From: Bolinopsis microptera
Lineage: Eukaryota; Ctenophora; Tentaculata; Lobata; Bolinopsidae
Direction: 5' to 3'
NCBI RefSeq assembly: GCF_026151205.1
Contig: NC_087078.1
Coordinates: 17,811,118 to 17,875,117 of the forward strand
DNA: 64,000 nucleotides
A model generated the notes under the pieces. That model saw only the letters and a list, made by a program, of their open reading frames with translations, was not told where the DNA came from and did no database searches. Shown here piece by piece: positions 1-50,644 of this stretch (its first letter is position 1; every line of letters begins with the position of its first letter). Position numbers and translations under genes: made by a program.

Positions 1-720
1 AACTTACCATGCCCTCCCACCTAGGGACCCACTTTATAGCCTCTGTGAGAGCTCCTAACTTACCATGCCCTCCCACCTAGGGACCCACTTTATAGCCTCT
101 GTGAGAGCTCCTAACTTACCATGCCCTCCCACCTAGGGACCCACTTTATAGCCTCTGTGAGAGCTATAACTTACCATGCCCTCCCACCTAGGAACCCACT
201 TTAAAGCCTCTGTGAGAGCTATAACTTACCATGCCCTCCCACCTAGGGACCCACTTTATAGCCTCTGTGAGAGCTCCTAACTTACCATGCCCTCCCACCT
301 AGGGACCCACTTTATAGCCTCTGTGAGAGCTCCTAACTTACCATGCCCTCCCACCTAGGGACCCACTTTATAGCCTCTGTGAGAGCTATAACTTATCATG
401 CCCTCCCACCTAGGGACCCACTTTATAGCCTCTGTGAGAGCTCCTAACTTACCATGCCCTCCCACCTAGGGACCCACTTTATAGCCTCTGTGAGAGCTAT
501 AACTTACCATGCCCTCCCACCTAGGGACCCACTTTATAGCCTCTGTGAGAGCTATAACTTATCATGCCCTCCCACCTAGGGACCCACTTTATAGCCTCTG
601 TGAGAGCTATAACTTATCATGCCCTCCCACCTAGGGACCCACTTTATAGCCTCTGTGAGAGCTATAACTTACCATGCCCTCCCACCTAGGGACCCACTTT
701 ATAGCCTCTGTGAGAGCGCC
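1..720 (-). repeat. 55/56-bp minisatellite made of an exon end plus its 5' splice site
   Basis: Thirteen head-to-tail units begin at 1, 57, 113, 168, 223, 279, 335, 390, 446, 501, 556, 611 and 666. They differ mainly by CCT versus AT at the unit junction. Read on the minus strand, each unit is the last ~40 coding bases of the MFS transporter exon at 673-857 (coding EAIKWVPRWEGM) followed by the donor GTAAGTT. The unit at 666 is continuous with the real exon. The units at 390, 556 and 611 have GT changed to AT at the donor; the other ten keep GTAAGT. The array continues past the left edge, so its full size is unknown. Confidence 0.95.
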
Positions 721-1511
721 AATAGTAGCTAGTGTCACCCCTACTGCCATCAGAACCGCAACTCCGTAGTAGATGTAGAAGTTGTACTTCACAGCTATGA
801 ATCCCAACACGAAGGAGCTCGTGTATATGAATGAACCCAATGCTGCTGATTCCCAACCTGATATGTGATTATGGGTGTTAATTTTGTACGGCACTATTAT
901 AAAAAATTGAATATCGTTTTATTTATGATGACTTCGATGCTCGATTCTCTGGCACACAATAAATAATAAAACAGCAACGTTTTAAATAATAAAAACAGTT
1001 TGAGGTTTAGATTAGTATTAGATTTAATTGCCGTTACCTCCAATTTTCTGAGCAAGAAGACCGCACGGAACACTTGCAAATCCCGTGACCAACATTCCGA
1101 AGAACACCAGGATGGACATGTCAGTGTACCGTAAGTTGGGTTGCTTGGCCCCTCTTTCCCTCGCATACGACACTAGGTATATGACCTGATTTCCTGTGTT
1201 GATGCACGTTAAAATGTGTACTCATTCCTTTATACTATTCGTTGATAATGTTGTATCTCAATGAGTATTGATATTGATTTTTGATATAAATGAGTATTTC
1301 AGTATCTGTTATTTACATTGGTTTAGATTGGTTGACTGGTGCAGATGTAACTTTGTAAATAAGACTAACCTAACGAGGTGACAGTGCCGACACTGAACTG
1401 GATCAGAGCAGATCCTATCAGTGCAACAGTCTGTCTGCATTTCAAGTTCTGGCATTTTCGTCCGTGCCTTCTGAGACTTTTCCAAGCTCGGTCCAGGCCA
1501 GTCCTCGCCAT
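673..1511 (-). CDS. MFS transporter, oxalate/formate-antiporter-like (5' exons; 3' part off the window)
   Basis: Three exons in transcript order: 1511-1370 (ATG at 1511, donor GTTAGT), 1193-1038 (acceptor ACACAG, donor GTAACG) and 857-673 (acceptor TATCAG, donor GTAAGT). Phases agree at both joints (1 and 1; exon 3 ends in phase 0). The ~160-residue product starts with a basic cytosolic tail, then a helix (TVALIGSALIQFSVGTV), then GNQVIYLVSYARERG. That matches the GN-x-PYI-x-SY-R signature after helix 1 in the OFA/monocarboxylate-like MFS family. Next come helix 2 ending in GLLAQKIGG and two further helices ending at EAIKWVPRWEGM, the usual KW-P--G loop between helices 4 and 5. These proteins move small carboxylates across membranes; the substrate here is unknown. 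The remaining exons lie left of the window, beyond the satellite. Family call is from remembered motifs. Confidence 0.8.
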
Positions 1512-3209
1512 TGCAGTTTTCAGTTAAGCTTGAGTTGAACGGTATTGCAAGTGTTGGAGTTTATCTATACTGTTAGGTGCTCTGGCTCTTCAGGAAAAGT
1601 TTTTTTAAATGAGAAGCAATCTTGTGAAGGTAATCACGCGTCACTTCAATTTTACATGTTGAAGTTCAATTTAACACAATACAACTACGCTATACTAAGT
1701 ACATATACAAGTACAACTACAAATACAATTGGTAAAGTGCACCGGCCAATTTATTCAAACAGTCTCCAGCATAACATTAATAATAATAGTGTTACCATGG
1801 TAACAACATTAATATGATCTCCAGATACAGTTAGTTCAATGATCGAGGTTTTACAGCTATAAATGCAGCTAGCAATATAAGGCTAGCTGTAGCCTCGGAT
1901 GCAAAAAGGGGCCAGTAGGCTAGCAAGTTGCGGACCAATAATAGTATCTATCTGTTAATGTTAAGCTGGTCTCGAAGAAAATTTCTGAGTTAGAATATAC
2001 CTTATCCTAATTTATAACAGATTTTAAGCCAACAGCCCACCTTAGGTCGCTTGGCCTAACTGGACTGAGTGATGTGACCCGTGCGTGATGTGACCCGTAC
2101 GTGCAATGTATTACTCACAACATGAGCTGACAGAGCATACTATCCGAGCCCGACGACGTGGACCAAATTAACGGGCTGATCGGCGATGGCTTGACTGTAA
2201 TTGCAGCAGTCAAGTACTTTTATATATTTATTTATTTAGAATTAGATAGTGATACAACAAGTTTATTAAAATATGATTAATTTAGATAATCAAATCAATA
2301 ACATATTTCACAATTGCAACACAATAACGTTTCTTGAACAAGAAGTACGTCCAGGAATGATGGTGACTGTGGAGGTCATGTTGCTCGATTGTCGATGCTC
2401 CGGTAGTCATATATGGCCCAAGCATATGAACTTGTTATCCCAATCAGAGATTGCGTGTGATAGGATCACCTGCTGACTCACTGACTCAGTGGATCACTTC
2501 GACATACTTGTCGTGAACCGACCCGACGAATCACTTAATGGTCCATTAGAAGGATAGGAACCGACCTGAGCTTGGAAATATGACAGGATCTGGTGTCGCA
2601 CTACAGTACGCTACCTGGACTGTAGTGCGACACGAACTCTAGTGCGAAAGAGGGAGGTCTTTTCGAACTTCAGGTTTCGTACTACGTGTCGCATGACAGT
2701 ACGTTTAGTTTTACCCCGACAGCCTTAGTTTCCCATCAACATGGGTAGTGGGTACGGGGGTAAAACTAAAATTGAATGGGTTTTCTATAAGTATGTCTTA
2801 TTCATTATTAGTACTTAATACTATTACTGTCTGTAAAAGTAATAATAAGATAAAGAAAATTGTTCAGGATTAACTTACCGACTAGTTACGAATTAGATAC
2901 TAATGAAAATTTAACATAGATATCTTGGAAAAATCACCAAAGCAATCTGCCACAATTGAGGTTCAATTTCTAATCTCTTTTACAAAAACAGACTGTTTAT
3001 TTCGTTAGAATAAAAATGACAGTTGTCATGTTATAACAAATTATATTTTAAACAAAAAAGCTGAAGAATATTGTGATTAGTTTCATGAAATAAACTGTAA
3101 AACATTCGCCAGCGAAAACAGAACCGATGGTCGTCCATCCGTTTGCGGCGATCGTTATTTGAAATTTAATAGCATTTGAAGTTTATCTAAAAGTTTAACA
3201 TGATAATGC
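1512..3209. other. Intergenic spacer between the two transporter genes
   Basis: AT-rich spacer upstream of the MFS start codon at 1511 and downstream of the P-protein stop codon. Short open frames here have no splice support or family resemblance. Two inverted repeats occur in the middle (listed separately). No promoter element can be assigned with confidence. Confidence 0.6.
2592..2632. repeat. Perfect hairpin, 14-bp arms
   Basis: The arm gtgtcgcactacag is followed by a 13-base loop and its exact reverse complement. A second inverted repeat with 12-bp arms (tagttttacccc) encloses ~40 bases at about 2705-2768. Both lie in the transporter intergenic spacer and may be ends of a decayed small element. 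Confidence 0.75.
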
Positions 3210-6200
3210 TCATCCATTACCCCACCCAAACCAGCAATGACAAACAAGCAGGTATATATGGGCAACAGTAACCGTCACAAACATAACGGGCAATCCTAAC
3301 TTCATAAAATCGAAAAACGATATTTTGTACCCCTTCTCCTCCGCTATGCCCACAGCTACAATATTAGCAGAAGCTCCAATGAGTGTTCCATTTCCCCCGA
3401 GACATGCCCCAAACGCTAAAGCATAAACCAGCGGCTCTAAAGGTAAACCAGTCTCTGTAACGATTTGTGAGATTACGGGGATTATAGCGGCGGTAAAGGG
3501 GATGTTATCGATGAAAGCTGAGATGATGGCTGCCATCCAGAGGATGATTGAGATAGCAGCAGCTAGTTGGTAGTCAGGTGAGATTGATTTTATGGTCGTC
3601 GCTGCAAACTCTCCGAGGGTACCTGGAAGGACGTCACGATGACTATTCGACTCTCCATGAAGGTTTGTTATCATTTTGATATTTAAAGCATTTTAGAATG
3701 TGATATAGTTTGAATATGAAGCAAGCTTGGTATTTGTCAATCTCGTCGATTTTGAGAATATCAATAATTGATTAAACAAATTACAATTGATTGAAAAAAT
3801 AATTAATTAATCAAATAAGGTATTTACCTATGAGCCCAAGTTTCTCAAGACACTCCACTAAAATGAAAAGTCCAGCAAAGAACATAAGAGTAGTCCATTC
3901 TACTTTGTGTAGCAGACCTTCCATGTCGTGGTGATCTGTGGTTGATACATTAGTTAAAAAAGTTCAAAATTCACAACTTTAGAATGTGAGTAGCAAAACA
4001 TTTCAGTTGATTTTGACCCCTCGTTAGTCGTTTTAAAAGAAGGATAAAATACTTAAGCAATACTTCCTATAGATACCTTATCGGACTTTATTTGAACGGA
4101 GTCGGACATTAATTGGACGCTGGAGGCCCTAGCGATCATTCTAATGTCCGTTCAATTAAAGTCCGACAAGGTAGTTAAATTAAATATATTAAATGAATGC
4201 CTATGATGTCCGTTCAAAATTATGTCTGTCCACAAAATGTCCGGTCAAATAACGTCCGATAAGGTATATCCAGAAACATGTATTCCAAATAGGCTACAAA
4301 CGTATGACGATGATATTGATAAGGTAAACCCAGAAACATGTAATGAGCTACAAACGTATGACAATGATAAGAAACATGTATTCCAAATGAGCTACAAACC
4401 TATGACAATGATAAGAAACATGTATTCCAAATTAGCTACAAACCTATGACAATGATAAGAAACATGTATTCCAAATTAGCTACAAACCTATGACAATGAT
4501 AAGAAACATGTATTCCAAATGAGCTACAAACGTATGACAATGATAAGAAACATGTATTCCAAATGAGCTACAAACGTATGACAATGATAAGAAACATGTA
4601 TTCCAAATTAGCTACAAACCTATGACAATGATAAGAAACATGTATTCCAAATGAGCTACAAACCTATGACAATGATAAGAAACATGTATTCCAAATGAGC
4701 TACAAACGTATGACGATGATAAGGTATATCCAGAAACATGTAATGAGCTACAAACGTATGACAATGATAAGAAACATGTATTCCAAATGAGCTACAAACC
4801 TATGACAATGATAAGAAACATGTATTCCAAATTAGCTACAAACCTATGACAATGATAAGAAACATGTATTCCAAATTAGCTACAAACCTATGACAATGAT
4901 AAGAAACATGTATTCCAAATGAGCTACAAACCTATGACAATGATAAGAAACATGTATTCCAAATGAGCTACAAACCTATGAAAATGATAAGAAACATGTA
5001 TTCCAAATGAGCTACAAACCTATGACAATGATAAGAAACATGTATTCCAAATGAGCTACAAACGTATGACAATGATAAGAAACATGTATTCCAAATGAGC
5101 TACAAACGTATGACAATGATAAGAAACATGTATTCCAAATTAGCTACAAACCTATGACAATGATAAGAAACATGTATTCCAAATGAGCTACAAACCTATG
5201 ACAATGATAAGAAACATGTATTCCAAATTAGCTACAAACCTATGACAATGATAAGAAACATGTATTCCAAATTAGCTACAAACCTATGACAATGATAAGA
5301 AACATGTATTCCAAATGAGCTACAAACGTATGACAATGATAAGAAACATGTATTCCAAATGAGCTACAAACGTATGACAATGATAAGAAACATGTATTCC
5401 AAATTAGCTACAAACCTATGACAATGATAAGAAACATGTATTCCAAATGAGCTACAAACCTATGACAATGATAAGAAACATGTATTCCAAATTAGCTACA
5501 AACCTATGACAATGATAAGAAACATGTATTCCAAATGAGCTACAAACCTATGACAATGATAAGAAACATGTATTCCAAATTAGCTACAAACCTATGACAA
5601 TGATAAGAAACATGTATTCCAAATTAGCTACAAACCTATGACAATGATAAGAAACATGTATTCCAAATTAGCTACAAACCTATGACAATGATAAGAAACA
5701 TGTATTCCAAATGAGCTACAAACGTATGACGATGATAAGAAACATGTATTCCAAATGAGCTACAAACGTATGACGATGATAAGGTATATCCAGAAACATG
5801 TATTCCAAATGAGCTACAAACGTATGACAATGATAAGGTATACCCAGAAACATGTAATGAGCTACAAACCTATGACGATGATGAGCGCAATGGCACCAGC
5901 CATAGCGACCTCTCCGGGCGTAGTATGTATTATAGGCAGGGAGTACACGAAGAACAGCAAGATGCACACTATCAGTACAGTTGCTGTTTTGACAAGTTTC
6001 CCCTTATCTCTGATACCGTATCTGGTGTGGAGTGTTGGGTAAGTGGGTTGGTTAGTAACTGTTGGTAACCGTTGGTAACCGTTGGTAACCATGGTTACTG
6101 CAAGCCCTTCTAAGAATGCAGCTCACAAAAAGCAGTTGGAGGGTTTAATTTGTATGGTTAACCAAACATCGAGGCAATGTTATCAGATTGGGAAGCAGCA

Positions 6201-9200
6201 AGTTCGATCATTAATATCAAAATGCTTTCTTAGAAATACAAGTTGGTATTTCTTCGAACTCGGGAGAGCTACGCAGGAAAAAGGTTGCGGAAATAGGAAG
6301 TGTTATTCAGGAAATGGGCAGGTTGGTTTTATGTATCATGATTAGCTAATACATATCGTTTAACCAGTGGACTCTGCTATCGTTGCTATTGTTGCTAAGA
6401 GATAATGCTATCGTTGCTAAAAGATAATGAGATAAGAATTTAAGGAAATAAGCACAAGGATAGATTTTCTACTCATCCTAATAACTCAACGTGTTCAAGC
6501 TGAAGTTCGAATCATTAATTTGATCTAAGAATTACTGGTTTCCTCAACCAAGGTTAACTTATTGGAAACATGAGCACAAGTGATGAAAATTGAAACTGAA
6601 AAGGGTAACAAGACCAAAATTGAAGTTTATTCAATCAGTTCCCCAGGATAAAATTTTACGATTACTCTTTAGAAGCGTTTGCTTCCTTACCCACAAGCAA
6701 AATCAACCTGCCAAGTCAATCAATAACCAAAAGAATATCTTACAGTAAAAAGACATCCGTTTCAACAATCTTGTTACGCACAAAATATATTTAACTCTGA
6801 GCAATCCTTTAAATACTTTTTTATTCTTTATCTTTAAATAATTTAAAGACTCACTGAGCTCTAAGTTTAGGCAGGTTAACGTTGTAAGTCTTGGTCACCT
6901 CTTGTGGTGTCATGACTCTCTCCTCCGCAAGACGTGTCACCTGTGCAGCTTTACCCGCTAACATTTCCTTCACAGCCACTTCATCCGTCGTTCCTGGTAA
7001 TGATGAAAACTAGGTAAAGGTGGGTTAAAACAATATCAGTATTAGAGATGCCAGATACAGTATTAGAGATGGTTGATACTGTATCTGATACTATTAAAAC
7101 AATTACTAGGATGATTTCCCAAATAGGGTACAGTTAGTGTCCCTTTATGGGTCCCTTTATGGGTGAAAATTCGTGCTTTAACAGTGTATGTGTGCAATGT
7201 ACAAGGGGAGCGATATGTGTCATCAGTTTTCTTTTATACCATAGTTGGTCAGTTCGTACAAAATTTGTAAAAAATTCGTACAGTTCGGCACCTTTTAAAA
7301 GTTCGGGATTAGTTCGGGAAAAATTCGCCTCATAAATTGAGGGAAACGATGGCGTGTCGACGTGTTAATATTTTAAATCTGAAGTGTAAAATTTTCTCTA
7401 AAACAAAATTTTTTCATAAAATTCGGTAAAAATTCCTCGACAGCTTTTTAAAATTCGTACAGTTCGGCACCTTCTAAAAGTTCGTACAGTGCGTACTGAC
7501 CAACTATGTTTTATACAGCTTAATAATATAACGGTTAAGGTTATATATAAACACTATAGTCTATATTGTATAACGCGCACGTATCACATTACACATCTTC
7601 CAATCGGAACCGAAAAAAATTATAACAAATAATACCTTGGCTTCTTTTCGGGCCACGCGTTCCCTCCAGCAAGCTGTCGGGAATTATCGCGTGTAGCCCT
7701 CAAAAGCCAAGGTATTATTGTATTATAACAAACCGATGTAACTCCGGTCCGCTATTCTCTGCCAAAGTTTAGCCTCCCTCAGAAGTTCCTGAACATCATT
7801 ATCTTGCACGATTAGACTCTTAGCGGTCCTTTTCAACATCAACCTGTAACAAATGGGTAAATAGTTCAACATCAACCTGTAACAAATGGGTAAATAGTTC
7901 AACATCAACCTGTAACAAATGGGTAAATAGTTCAACATCAACCTGTAACAAATGGGTAAATAGTTCAACATCAACCTGTAACAAATGGGTAAATAGTTCA
8001 ACATCAACCTGTAACAAATGGGTAAATAGTTCAACATCAACCTGTAACAAATGGGTAAATAGTTCAACATCAACCTGTAACAAATGGGTAAATAGTTCAA
8101 CATCAACCTGTAACAAATGGGTAAATAGTTCAACATCAACCTGTAACAAATGGGTAAATATAATTCCCGTCATATTATTCATGTACATTATCATGAGATT
8201 TCTTTCTTAACAAGTAATAACAGTCAGTTTAACTTACTGTTATTTATTTGCGATTAGGCAGGGGAAATATCCACGCAGCAATTAAACTATATTTCTGCCA
8301 TGAAAGGCTTTAGACATCCGAGCTTAAAATGTAGTATATATCTAAGTAATTGGAGGCAAGCAAAAACGTGATAACAGTCAGAAAGGTAATCACTACTTAC
8401 CAAAAGTAAATGTAAGCAGCCACTGAACAGAGAATAGAACCAACCATCATGTGGCCAGTAAACTTCCCGAATGTTATCTTCTGTAATAATAGCGAGGGTT
8501 AGCTTATAGTTATAGCTTCCAAATGATTTCCATGACCCGAAATACCAGAATAATTGTATTTTGTGTGTTTTCTTGTCACAATTACTGACTATGAGTAGTG
8601 AGAGCACGAGCCTCAATTAAAATAAATCCCGTAAACAAAACAACAAAACAACGAGTTAACCTACACTATTAAGGAGTGGAGAGTTGATGATAAGAACGTT
8701 GGGAGGATCACCTATACCGGTAGAAGCTCCTCCGAGATTTGAAAACATCACCATCGCTAGAATCACCTTCTTGACATCAAGATGCATCACCTGACACAAC
8801 CTGTATGGAAACTAGTTGAAATTTTATAGAGTTATTACCCGGCAAGCTATGTATTTACAACTTAACTTTCTAAGATCCATTAAATAAATTAATTCGGATA
8901 AATCATGTTTCTAATCGAACATAGGTGTTTTACTGACAAAACTTCTGCGGAGATAAAAACATAATTCTTTTAAAAAAAATTATTTTAAAACAAAATTTTG
9001 TTTATTTTTTATTTTTATAATTAGTTGTTAATGGTTGCAAAGTTGAAACTCACGTGATAGTTATGGGTGTTATCAAAAGGATGGTGGTTACGTTATCCTG
9101 AAACATATTCACATTAGCACAAACTAGCGAACTAAATACTGATGGTCAAGTGTTTTAAGCATTGAGGCTAAATTTGAATAATAGGAGTGGGTCTCTAAAC

Positions 9201-48921: not shown

Positions 48922-50644
48922 GGTTCTTTTGCGATAGTCAAAACGCGACAACTAGCGCTGGATGGCGACAACTAGCGCTATCCAGCGCTAGTTGTCGCCA
49001 TCCAGCGCTAGTTGTCGCTATCCAGCGCTGGATAACGCTGGCCAGCGCAAAATATATATGTTCGATAATTGTCGCTATCCAGCGCTAGTTGTCGCCATCC
49101 AGCGCTAGTTGTCGCCATCCAGCGCTAGTTGTCGCTGGCTATGCGACACTGTCGCACGCGATAGTTTGCGATGGCCAGCGCAACTGGCCATCGCAGAAAA
49201 CAGTTCGATAACTAGCGCTGGATAGCGACAACTAGCGCTGGATAGCGACAACTAGCGCTGGCCAGCGCTGGCCAGCGCTAAGCGATAGCCAGCGCTGGCC
49301 AGCGCTGGCAATCGATATCCAGCGCAAAATTTTTGCGCTATTACTCGTCAGCTAGCGCTGGCCAGCGCTAGTTGTCGCTATCCAGCGCTAACCAGCGCTA
49401 ACCAGCGCTAACCAGCGCTAGTTGTCGCTAACCAGCGCTAACCAGCGCTAGCCAGCGCTAACCAGCGCTAACCAGCGCTAGCCAGCGCTAGCCAGCGCTA
49501 GCCAGCGCTGGCCAGCGCTAGCTGACGAGTAATATCGCAACTATATTGAATTGTGCTGGCTGACAAGTAATACTAATATCGAGCGTGCTAAATCACTCTA
49601 CAGTCGATCTTCGAGATTGTTCTAAAAGGGCCCCCGATGGTTGTAAGTTGTAACCAACTTCAATCGATGTATTTTCGGACGCTAATTCCGAATCAACCCC
49701 CATGGGCCCATGACATAGGGTTAAAATGCTCTCCTGACGAGATATTGGCGAAAAACTGTACATGTATCGATCACGTGATATGACCGTATAAGGAAGTTAG
49801 TCTAATTTCTCGTTATTGTTAGGGTTTCAGCATATGTTTTTGTTAAGAATTGGGTTAGGGTTAGGGTTGGGATCAGATTAGAGGGTTAGGGTTTCGAAAA
49901 GTCGTTCAGAACCAGCTAGATCAGAGTCAGAGAATGGGTTAAAAAAGTCACGTGACAGTCGAGTGTAAAGTGATTAATCATCATCCAAGTAATATCGCAA
50001 GTATATGATTTTGATACATATTATATTGCGCTGGCTAGCGCTGGCTACCGCTGGCTAACGCTGGCTAGCGCTGGATAGCGACAACTTGCGCTGGATAGCG
50101 ACAACTAGCGCTGGCTAGCGCTGGATAGCGACAACTAGCGCTGGATAGCGACAACTAGCGCTGTCTAGCGCTGGCCAGCGCTGGCCAGCGCTAGCTGACG
50201 AGTAATAGCGCAAAAATTTTGCGCTGGATATCGATGGCCAGCGCTGGCCAGCGCTGGCTATCGCTTAGCGCTGGCCAGCGCTGGCCAGCGCTAGTTGTCG
50301 CTATCCAGCGCTAGTTGTCGCTATCCAGCGCTAGTTATCGAACTGTTTTCTGCGATGGCCAGTTGCGCTGGCCATCGCAAACTATCGCGTGCGACAGTGT
50401 CGCATAGCCAGCGACAACTAGCGCTGGATGGCGACAACTAGCGCTGGATGGCGACAACTAGCGCTGGATGGCGACAACTAGCGCTGGATAGCGACAATTA
50501 TCGAACATATATATTTTGCGCTGGCCAGCGTTATCCAGCGCTGGATAGCGACAACTAGCGCTGGATGGCGACAACTAGCGCTGGATAGCGCTAGTTGTCG
50601 CCATCCAGCGCTAGTTGTCGCGTTTTGACTATCGCAAAAGAACC
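48922..50644. mobile_element. Foldback element, 1723 bp, ~600-bp inverted arms of GCGCTGG repeats, 8-bp target duplication
   Basis: The left end ggttcttttgcgatagtc is exactly mirrored at the right end. Both arms (about 48922-49548 and 50018-50644) are built from short modules agcgctgg, gcgacaact and ccagcgct, many of them self-palindromic (agcgct). Flanks are gaaatctg at 48914-48921 and 50645-50652. A paralogous uninterrupted site, agtaggaagaaatctgttca, occurs at 51566-51585 and confirms the borders. The arms are non-coding. The ~470-bp centre has no ORF but contains interspersed TTAGGG units. Confidence 0.93.
49853..49895 (+). repeat. Short TTAGGG-type repeats in the centre of the foldback element
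   Basis: gggttagggttagggttggg, a spacer, then agggttagggttt. This is the canonical animal telomere hexamer in about five imperfect copies inside a mobile element, not a chromosome end. Confidence 0.7.

Follow-up and report, generated by a model that had tools for sequence, protein, structure and literature searches.

Tandem repeat arrays that straddle exon-intron junctions in the ctenophore Bolinopsis microptera

A stretch of 64,000 nucleotides from Bolinopsis microptera (NCBI RefSeq assembly GCF_026151205.1, contig NC_087078.1, positions 17,811,118 to 17,875,117; hereafter the window) carries three minisatellites in two neighbouring genes, and in each of these arrays the terminal unit contains a splice junction of the host gene. 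Comparable arrays are present in myosin, kinesin and dynein genes elsewhere in the genome. We consider it probable that these arrays are mirages, the name given in amphioxus to tandem repeats over exon-intron borders, each founded by a short duplication straddling the junction and enlarged by later repeat expansion, and that they are moderately more common at 5ˊ splice sites. Among the genes of the main sample, junction-spanning arrays occur at about twice the number given by random placement, with most of this moderate excess at 5ˊ splice sites.

Three junction arrays in the window and in its second copy

Both host genes lie on the minus strand. One encodes an MFS-like transporter, although its match to the MFS_1 family is weak (1.5e-06, below the curated cut-off). 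The other, here called the P gene, is presumably OCA2-like, and its joined exons match the CitMHS family with an E-value of 1.8e-73. Tandem Repeats Finder (TRF) recovers all three arrays (Table 1) at the places given in the initial annotation, which had been made from the letters of the window. That annotation also proposed that one edge of each array is the functional junction, such that the repeat unit spans coding and intron sequence, and the reading frames bear this out. The MFS-like exon joins in frame (ATG/gtaagt ... cag/GTG AAC) to a following exon that encodes VNGINYG, which was read in the extended locus sequence L001. The P-gene donor is fixed by the frame from GTC ATA G/gtttgt to ccacag/AT CAC CAC, which yields V-I-D-H-H-D, and the P-gene acceptor reads ttacag/G TTG ATG TTG AAA, with the exon opening as LMLKRTAKS. 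The arrays include 45 exonic bases for the 55/56-bp repeat (673-717), 13 for the 44-bp repeat (5870-5882) and 12 for the 33-bp repeat (7832-7843). At each array the exons are in frame across one existing intron, and an extra intron is not needed.

Table 1. Junction arrays and associated features. Slashes mark exon-intron borders. Positions refer to the window, or to the sense strand of the locus for the two dynein entries.
Feature	Position	Strand	Junction or ends	Repeat	Basis or remark
55/56-bp minisatellite	1-717	-	MFS-gene donor		TRF; right-hand end of a longer array
MFS-like transporter exon	673-857	-	WEGM/gtaagt, donor between 673 and 672		Sequence
P-gene acceptor	3935-3936	-	ccacag/ATCACC	none in this copy	Sequence
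TA-flanked palindromic MITE-like element	4076-4264		ends CCTTATCGGAC		Inverted repeats
44-bp minisatellite	4270-5882	-	P-gene donor		TRF 4342-5837 plus a 54-bp row at 5738-5882
P-gene exon, end	5870-6021	-	VI-G/gtttgt, donor between 5870 and 5869		Reading frame over the intron; CitMHS match
P-gene exon, start	7741-7843	-	ttacag/GTTGATGTTGAA		Sequence; 3ˊ end approximate
33-bp minisatellite	7832-8160	-	P-gene acceptor	10.0 units	TRF; 100% matches
Myosin L011			donor HYYAQ/gtagga	40 bp x 22
Kinesin L016			donor SSRSHA/gtaagt	38 bp x 2
Kinesin L018			donor TSLSEL-G/gtaagt	33 bp x 52
Kinesin L027			acceptor	49 bp x 2.6
Kinesin L030			donor PLVDWVFQ-G/gtaag	35 bp x 25
Kinesin L030, second array			acceptor	41 bp x 5.8
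Kinesin L031			donor SKLT-AG/gtaaga	53 bp x 2
Dynein L037	1239-2006	sense	donor NLKSLFRPVAMTLPDFGLIIE/gttagt	65 bp x 12
Dynein L044	3671-3780	sense	NLKMLFRTVAMMVPDRQIII-AG/gt	55 bp x 2	Junction judged by hand

The 55/56-bp array extends 1.7 kb to the left of the window, to C7:17809401 (L001:8284), and totals 44 units that are separated by the spacers TA (21), GGA (18), ATA (1) and CAA (1) or by none (2). The 44-bp array comprises about 34 copies, with 36 donor-like units counted, and its units at both ends appear longer by eye, at about 54-57 bp. The frame of the 33-bp array is open without a stop through all ten units (open frame 7723-8169), and each extra unit would add 11 amino acids if an upstream acceptor were used. 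By eye, a 16-20 bp stretch that ends in acag also occurs as three near copies at the acceptor of the MFS exon encoding VNGINYG.

An inverted second copy of the locus lies about 345 kb away on the same sequence, C7 (98% identity over 382 query bases), with larger alignment blocks between it and the first 10 kb of the window that are about 89-97% identical. The two copies, here called locus A (in the window) and locus B, occupy C7 17.80-17.82 and 18.15-18.17 Mb (L001, L002 and L003). Locus B has all three arrays, as well as the small repeat at the VNGINYG acceptor, which is present in both loci. The copy numbers in locus A and locus B are 44 versus 26-27 for the 55-bp array, about 34 versus 5 for the 44-bp array and 10 versus 9 for the 33-bp array, a contrast between two loci of one individual in which B may be a paralogue. 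Locus B additionally has a private array of 38 bp x 2.5 at the acceptor ccacag/ATCACC (L002 7812-7908). Locus B may be a paralogue or a misplaced haplotype, and since all three arrays are present in both copies, they predate the split of the copies in either case. The second copy of the P-gene region also contains a 7-bp satellite, CACACTC, with 176 copies at 100% match (L002 1192-2423).

Junction arrays in motor-protein genes and their frequency

Exons encoding the myosin head, kinesin and dynein AAA_6 domains were located genome-wide, which gave 41 loci and 191,041 bp, and individual examples were read by eye in conserved protein motifs (Table 1). These examples agree with the proposal in the initial annotation that arrays arise on splice junctions, and extend it to unrelated genes (P, MFS-like, myosin, kinesin and dynein). 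The donor cases are the 55-bp and 44-bp arrays together with those of L011, L016, L018, L030, L031 and L037; the acceptor cases are the 33-bp array, second arrays in L016 and L030, and the array of L027. In the diverged dynein paralogues L037 and L044, junction arrays occupy the same intron position; each contains 53 exonic bases, and their start points agree within one base (LK/SLFRP and LK/MLFRT). Two further dyneins, L036 and L040, seem to have an acceptor near this start point. The kinesin L018 also carries a 26-bp unit in 112 copies (2205-5115, sense strand) that ends 3 bases inside a kinesin exon; this acceptor array includes hardly any exonic sequence.

The frequency of junction arrays was compared with a null in which one unit per array is placed randomly outside full exons in array-collapsed sequence. 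Under the first junction calls, with periods of at least 10, 14 of 133 arrays in the three gene sets lie on a junction compared with 7.61 expected (P=0.0175), and the kinesin set contributes 10 of 59 (4.69 expected, P=0.014). When the period is limited to 20-120 and the score to at least 60, the count is 12/54 against 4.65 expected (P=0.0015). These looser calls gave false overlaps in the follow-up loci L058 and L059, where a donor had been called about 45 bases past the exon match, and all four sets were therefore redone with strict windows. Strict windows drop the 26-bp array of L011; L029 lies beyond the 120-bp period limit, and L044 is missed by the caller.

With strict calls, 11 of 54 arrays in the motor genes span a junction versus 4.65 expected (P=0.005). 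Separated by site, donors account for 7/54 (2.21 expected, P=0.005) and acceptors for 4/54 (2.47 expected, P=0.24). Unit overlap per 1000 positions in these sets is 37.2 at donor junctions, 38.3 at +5 to +25 and 8.9 at 60-240 bases into the intron, and the corresponding acceptor values are 15.2, 24.4 and 6.6. Among long arrays (at least 5 copies), 5 of 18 are on a junction compared with 1.78 expected (P=0.023). In the studied locus alone, 3 of 5 arrays with periods of at least 20 span a junction (0.61 expected, P=0.012), a test that uses 20 hand-set junctions and a locus chosen because of its three arrays. The junctions are dense, with about 9% of randomly placed units spanning one, and about half of the junction-spanning arrays are expected by chance.

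Founding joints, internal sites and competing explanations

The joints of the clean two-copy duplications carry little or no microhomology. They have 1 base (the 26-bp array of L011, L016 and L031) or 0 bases (L029 and L044). The other junction duplications have 1 base (L035), 5 bases (L021, a weak array with 44% identity between copies) and 15 bases (L027), the last because the array has 2.6 copies. A microhomology of 0-1 base is consistent with a staggered break repaired by end joining, and is not what priming from repeats of a splice motif would leave.

The 44-bp array retains traces of its origin next to an element resembling a miniature inverted-repeat transposable element (MITE; Table 1). 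A first look at the genome gave 1556 candidates for this element, and the 40 that were scored yielded 77 matches, many of which are the two strands of one copy. By eye, the long units at the ends of the 44-bp array finish on their intronic side with ...ATACCTTATC, and their last bases are the end of the MITE-like element (minus strand, CCTTATC). It is thus probable that the founding unit reached from the exon end to the element end, after insertion of the element, and that the core of the array lost about 11 bp later. The initial annotation had remarked that the unit lengths 33, 44 and 55 are all multiples of 11. Although TRF does report these periods, the longer end units of the 44-bp array mean that this series does not describe the founding units, and the agreement with 11 is a coincidence (7 of 58 periods of at least 20 are such multiples compared with 5.3 expected).

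Splice sites inside the arrays decay, and the extra sites are accordingly read as passengers. In the 55-bp array, the internal GT is lost in 3 of the 44 units of locus A and in 0 of 26 in locus B. Of 36 units in the 44-bp array, 13 have lost the G at position -1, and in locus B the 33-bp array includes one internal acceptor with CCGG rather than CAGG. By eye, use of the next donor downstream would introduce a stop codon in three cases, the donor arrays of the MFS and P genes and the 33-bp kinesin array.

The explanation that we favour would begin with one tandem duplication of a short stretch (about 20-65 bp) straddling an exon-intron border, presumably formed when a staggered break is joined with little or no microhomology. 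Ordinary repeat instability would then expand the duplication. The copy that borders the exon, meaning the first donor or the last acceptor, would remain the working splice site, while the remaining copies would be carried in the intron and drift, probably neutrally. Founding duplications of this kind would be somewhat over-represented at 5ˊ splice sites relative to random placement.

Several points weigh against a preference for junctions. The junctions were called from Pfam exon matches and a hand-made splice score rather than from RNA, one of the 11 strict cases (L021) is the weak array noted above, and a few array rows are not independent because L014/L015 and L058/L059 are 95-99.9% alike. 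The myosin (2/49 versus 1.18 expected) and dynein (2/25 versus 1.61) sets are not significant alone under the first calls. Young duplications alone are not significantly enriched either (6/40 versus 3.57, P=0.13). A follow-up set of 12 loci with 85 junctions combined chaperonin genes (51 junctions), for which an enrichment of donors over deep intron had been predicted in advance, with ABC genes (34 junctions) that were added afterwards. Under strict calls, 0 of its 7 arrays lie on a junction (0.7 expected), and no unit overlaps any of its 40 donors or 45 acceptors. The follow-up values per 1000 donor positions are 0 at the junction (0/40), 20 at +5 to +25 and 7.5 at 60-240; for acceptors they are 0 (0/45), 40 and 0. 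The donor value of 20 derives from two arrays, which belong to the near-identical L058 and L059. Arrays are thus again found near exon ends, with none spanning one. The follow-up did not confirm the donor prediction, and so small a set could not have refuted it. Pooling the main and follow-up sets leaves 11/61 against 5.45 expected (P=0.014), with donors at 7/61 (2.62 expected, P=0.016) and acceptors at 4/61 (2.79 expected, P=0.31). The suggestion in the initial annotation that such arrays exceed random expectation holds for the main sample, but the excess did not recur in the follow-up, and about half of the cases are expected by chance. Two introns of the near-identical ABC genes L058 and L059, which are on different chromosomes, contain 21-bp repeats that belong to one family (AGTTGTCATGGTAACC); in one intron they are near a called acceptor, in the other 7 bases from a called donor.

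These results bear on whether any preference exists at all. Duplications might fall anywhere in genes whose exons are dense, with the junction cases simply tolerated and the present locus noticed because it has three of them. The high chance rate and the empty follow-up speak for such an account, as do the myosin and dynein counts, yet we find it rather doubtful given the kinesin and three-set results, the strict count in the motor genes and the drop in unit overlap from main-set donors to deep intron. A difference in survival is a somewhat better candidate, if still unlikely on balance. Births would then be even across the gene, and exon-anchored arrays would be kept and re-seeded through an edge unit held under purifying selection as their intronic counterparts decay. 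Long arrays are indeed more enriched than young ones, and since young duplications are not significantly enriched, better survival could explain part of the excess. However, near-perfect two-copy junction duplications are present in several genes (L011, L016, L031 and L044), indicating that births on junctions happen repeatedly.

Another tentative and rather doubtful idea is that 5ˊ splice sites of this lineage form a hotspot at which mutation produces short tandem duplications. Some process at exon ends, such as transcription-linked breaks or R-loops, would create staggered breaks, the breaks would be sealed without microhomology, and minisatellites would be founded repeatedly at the same place, as might be envisaged for the dyneins L037 and L044. 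Two further causes raised in the initial annotation fare poorly. Selection for redundant splice sites, whereby extra sites raise splicing accuracy or yield useful variants, could draw on the 33-bp array, which is in frame over ten units with a 100% unit match and 11 amino acids per unit used, but internal sites show no sign of protection (the lost GT, the lost -1 G and the CCGG acceptor), and this explanation is very improbable. Slippage primed by splice-site-like sequence flanking the founding unit is the hardest to credit. By eye, the founding joint of the 44-bp array may share ATC between the exon and the end of the MITE-like element, which is not a splice motif, and the clean two-copy cases lack the microhomology that such priming would leave.

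Relation to known systems and further observations

In amphioxus, mirages have been described as tandem repeats over exon-intron borders in Adh3, the globins BflGb6 and BflGb9, troponin C and PGBD5 (PMC3087553, PMC3902484, each seen in part). All three arrays in the window and those in the motor genes are likewise minisatellite-like duplications that contain an exon-intron boundary, both 5ˊ and 3ˊ splice sites are affected, and the AG/GT signal survives in many copies, though not in all (in locus A, 41 of the 44 units in the 55-bp array retain GT). Mirages are further marked by lengths that vary among haplotypes or cells and by mRNA that is spliced normally; here the copy numbers differ between loci A and B, of which B may be a paralogue. 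The amphioxus examples come from a cephalochordate, whereas the present arrays are from a ctenophore, reach up to 52 units among the junction arrays, were compared with random placement at 53 loci and are read from genome sequence. In the titles and opening abstract lines of the open-licence literature, we found no recognised case of junction-spanning tandem repeats outside cephalochordates, and none of a mirage or of a minisatellite at a splice site in a ctenophore. The kind of structure is therefore already known, and its occurrence in a remote clade is new as far as that literature shows.

Two other types of event resemble the arrays in part. Intron gain by internal tandem duplication, in which an AG/GT proto-splice site is copied (cited in PMC3087553, seen in part), similarly involves a short tandem duplication through which splice signals within a gene are copied. 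In contrast, existing introns grow in the present cases, and no new intron derived from duplicated coding sequence was found at the three arrays. Ordinary intronic minisatellites are similar in period, purity and expansion, but the terminal unit here holds coding sequence and the putative working splice site.

With the same kind of structure in a ctenophore, mirages are no longer a peculiarity of lancelets. Ctenophores may be the sister lineage to all other animals. Genes with 44 or 52 nearly identical donors in a row amount to a natural experiment in splice-site choice, in which the spliceosome has to pick one site among equals, and junction arrays represent a route for intron growth that could also alter exon ends. 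If the donor excess holds genome-wide, it would suggest that DNA breakage or its repair is linked to exon ends.

Among the dynein and kinesin matches, four are single, very long open frames of 3357, 3703, 1015 and 984 amino acids (C3:8954112, C1:6100405, C11:9238253 and C1:18694886, respectively). They are apparently intronless compared with their many-intron paralogues and are possibly retrocopies. Among other proteins of the genome, an ionotropic glutamate receptor has ML032222a iGluR, from Mnemiopsis leidyi, as its best solved relative, and for a TRPM-like protein the best relative, though distant, is 6co7, the TRPM2 of Nematostella. Elsewhere in the window, at positions 48976-50590, units of 10-20 bp built around AGCGCTGG form dense arrays that run in both orientations.

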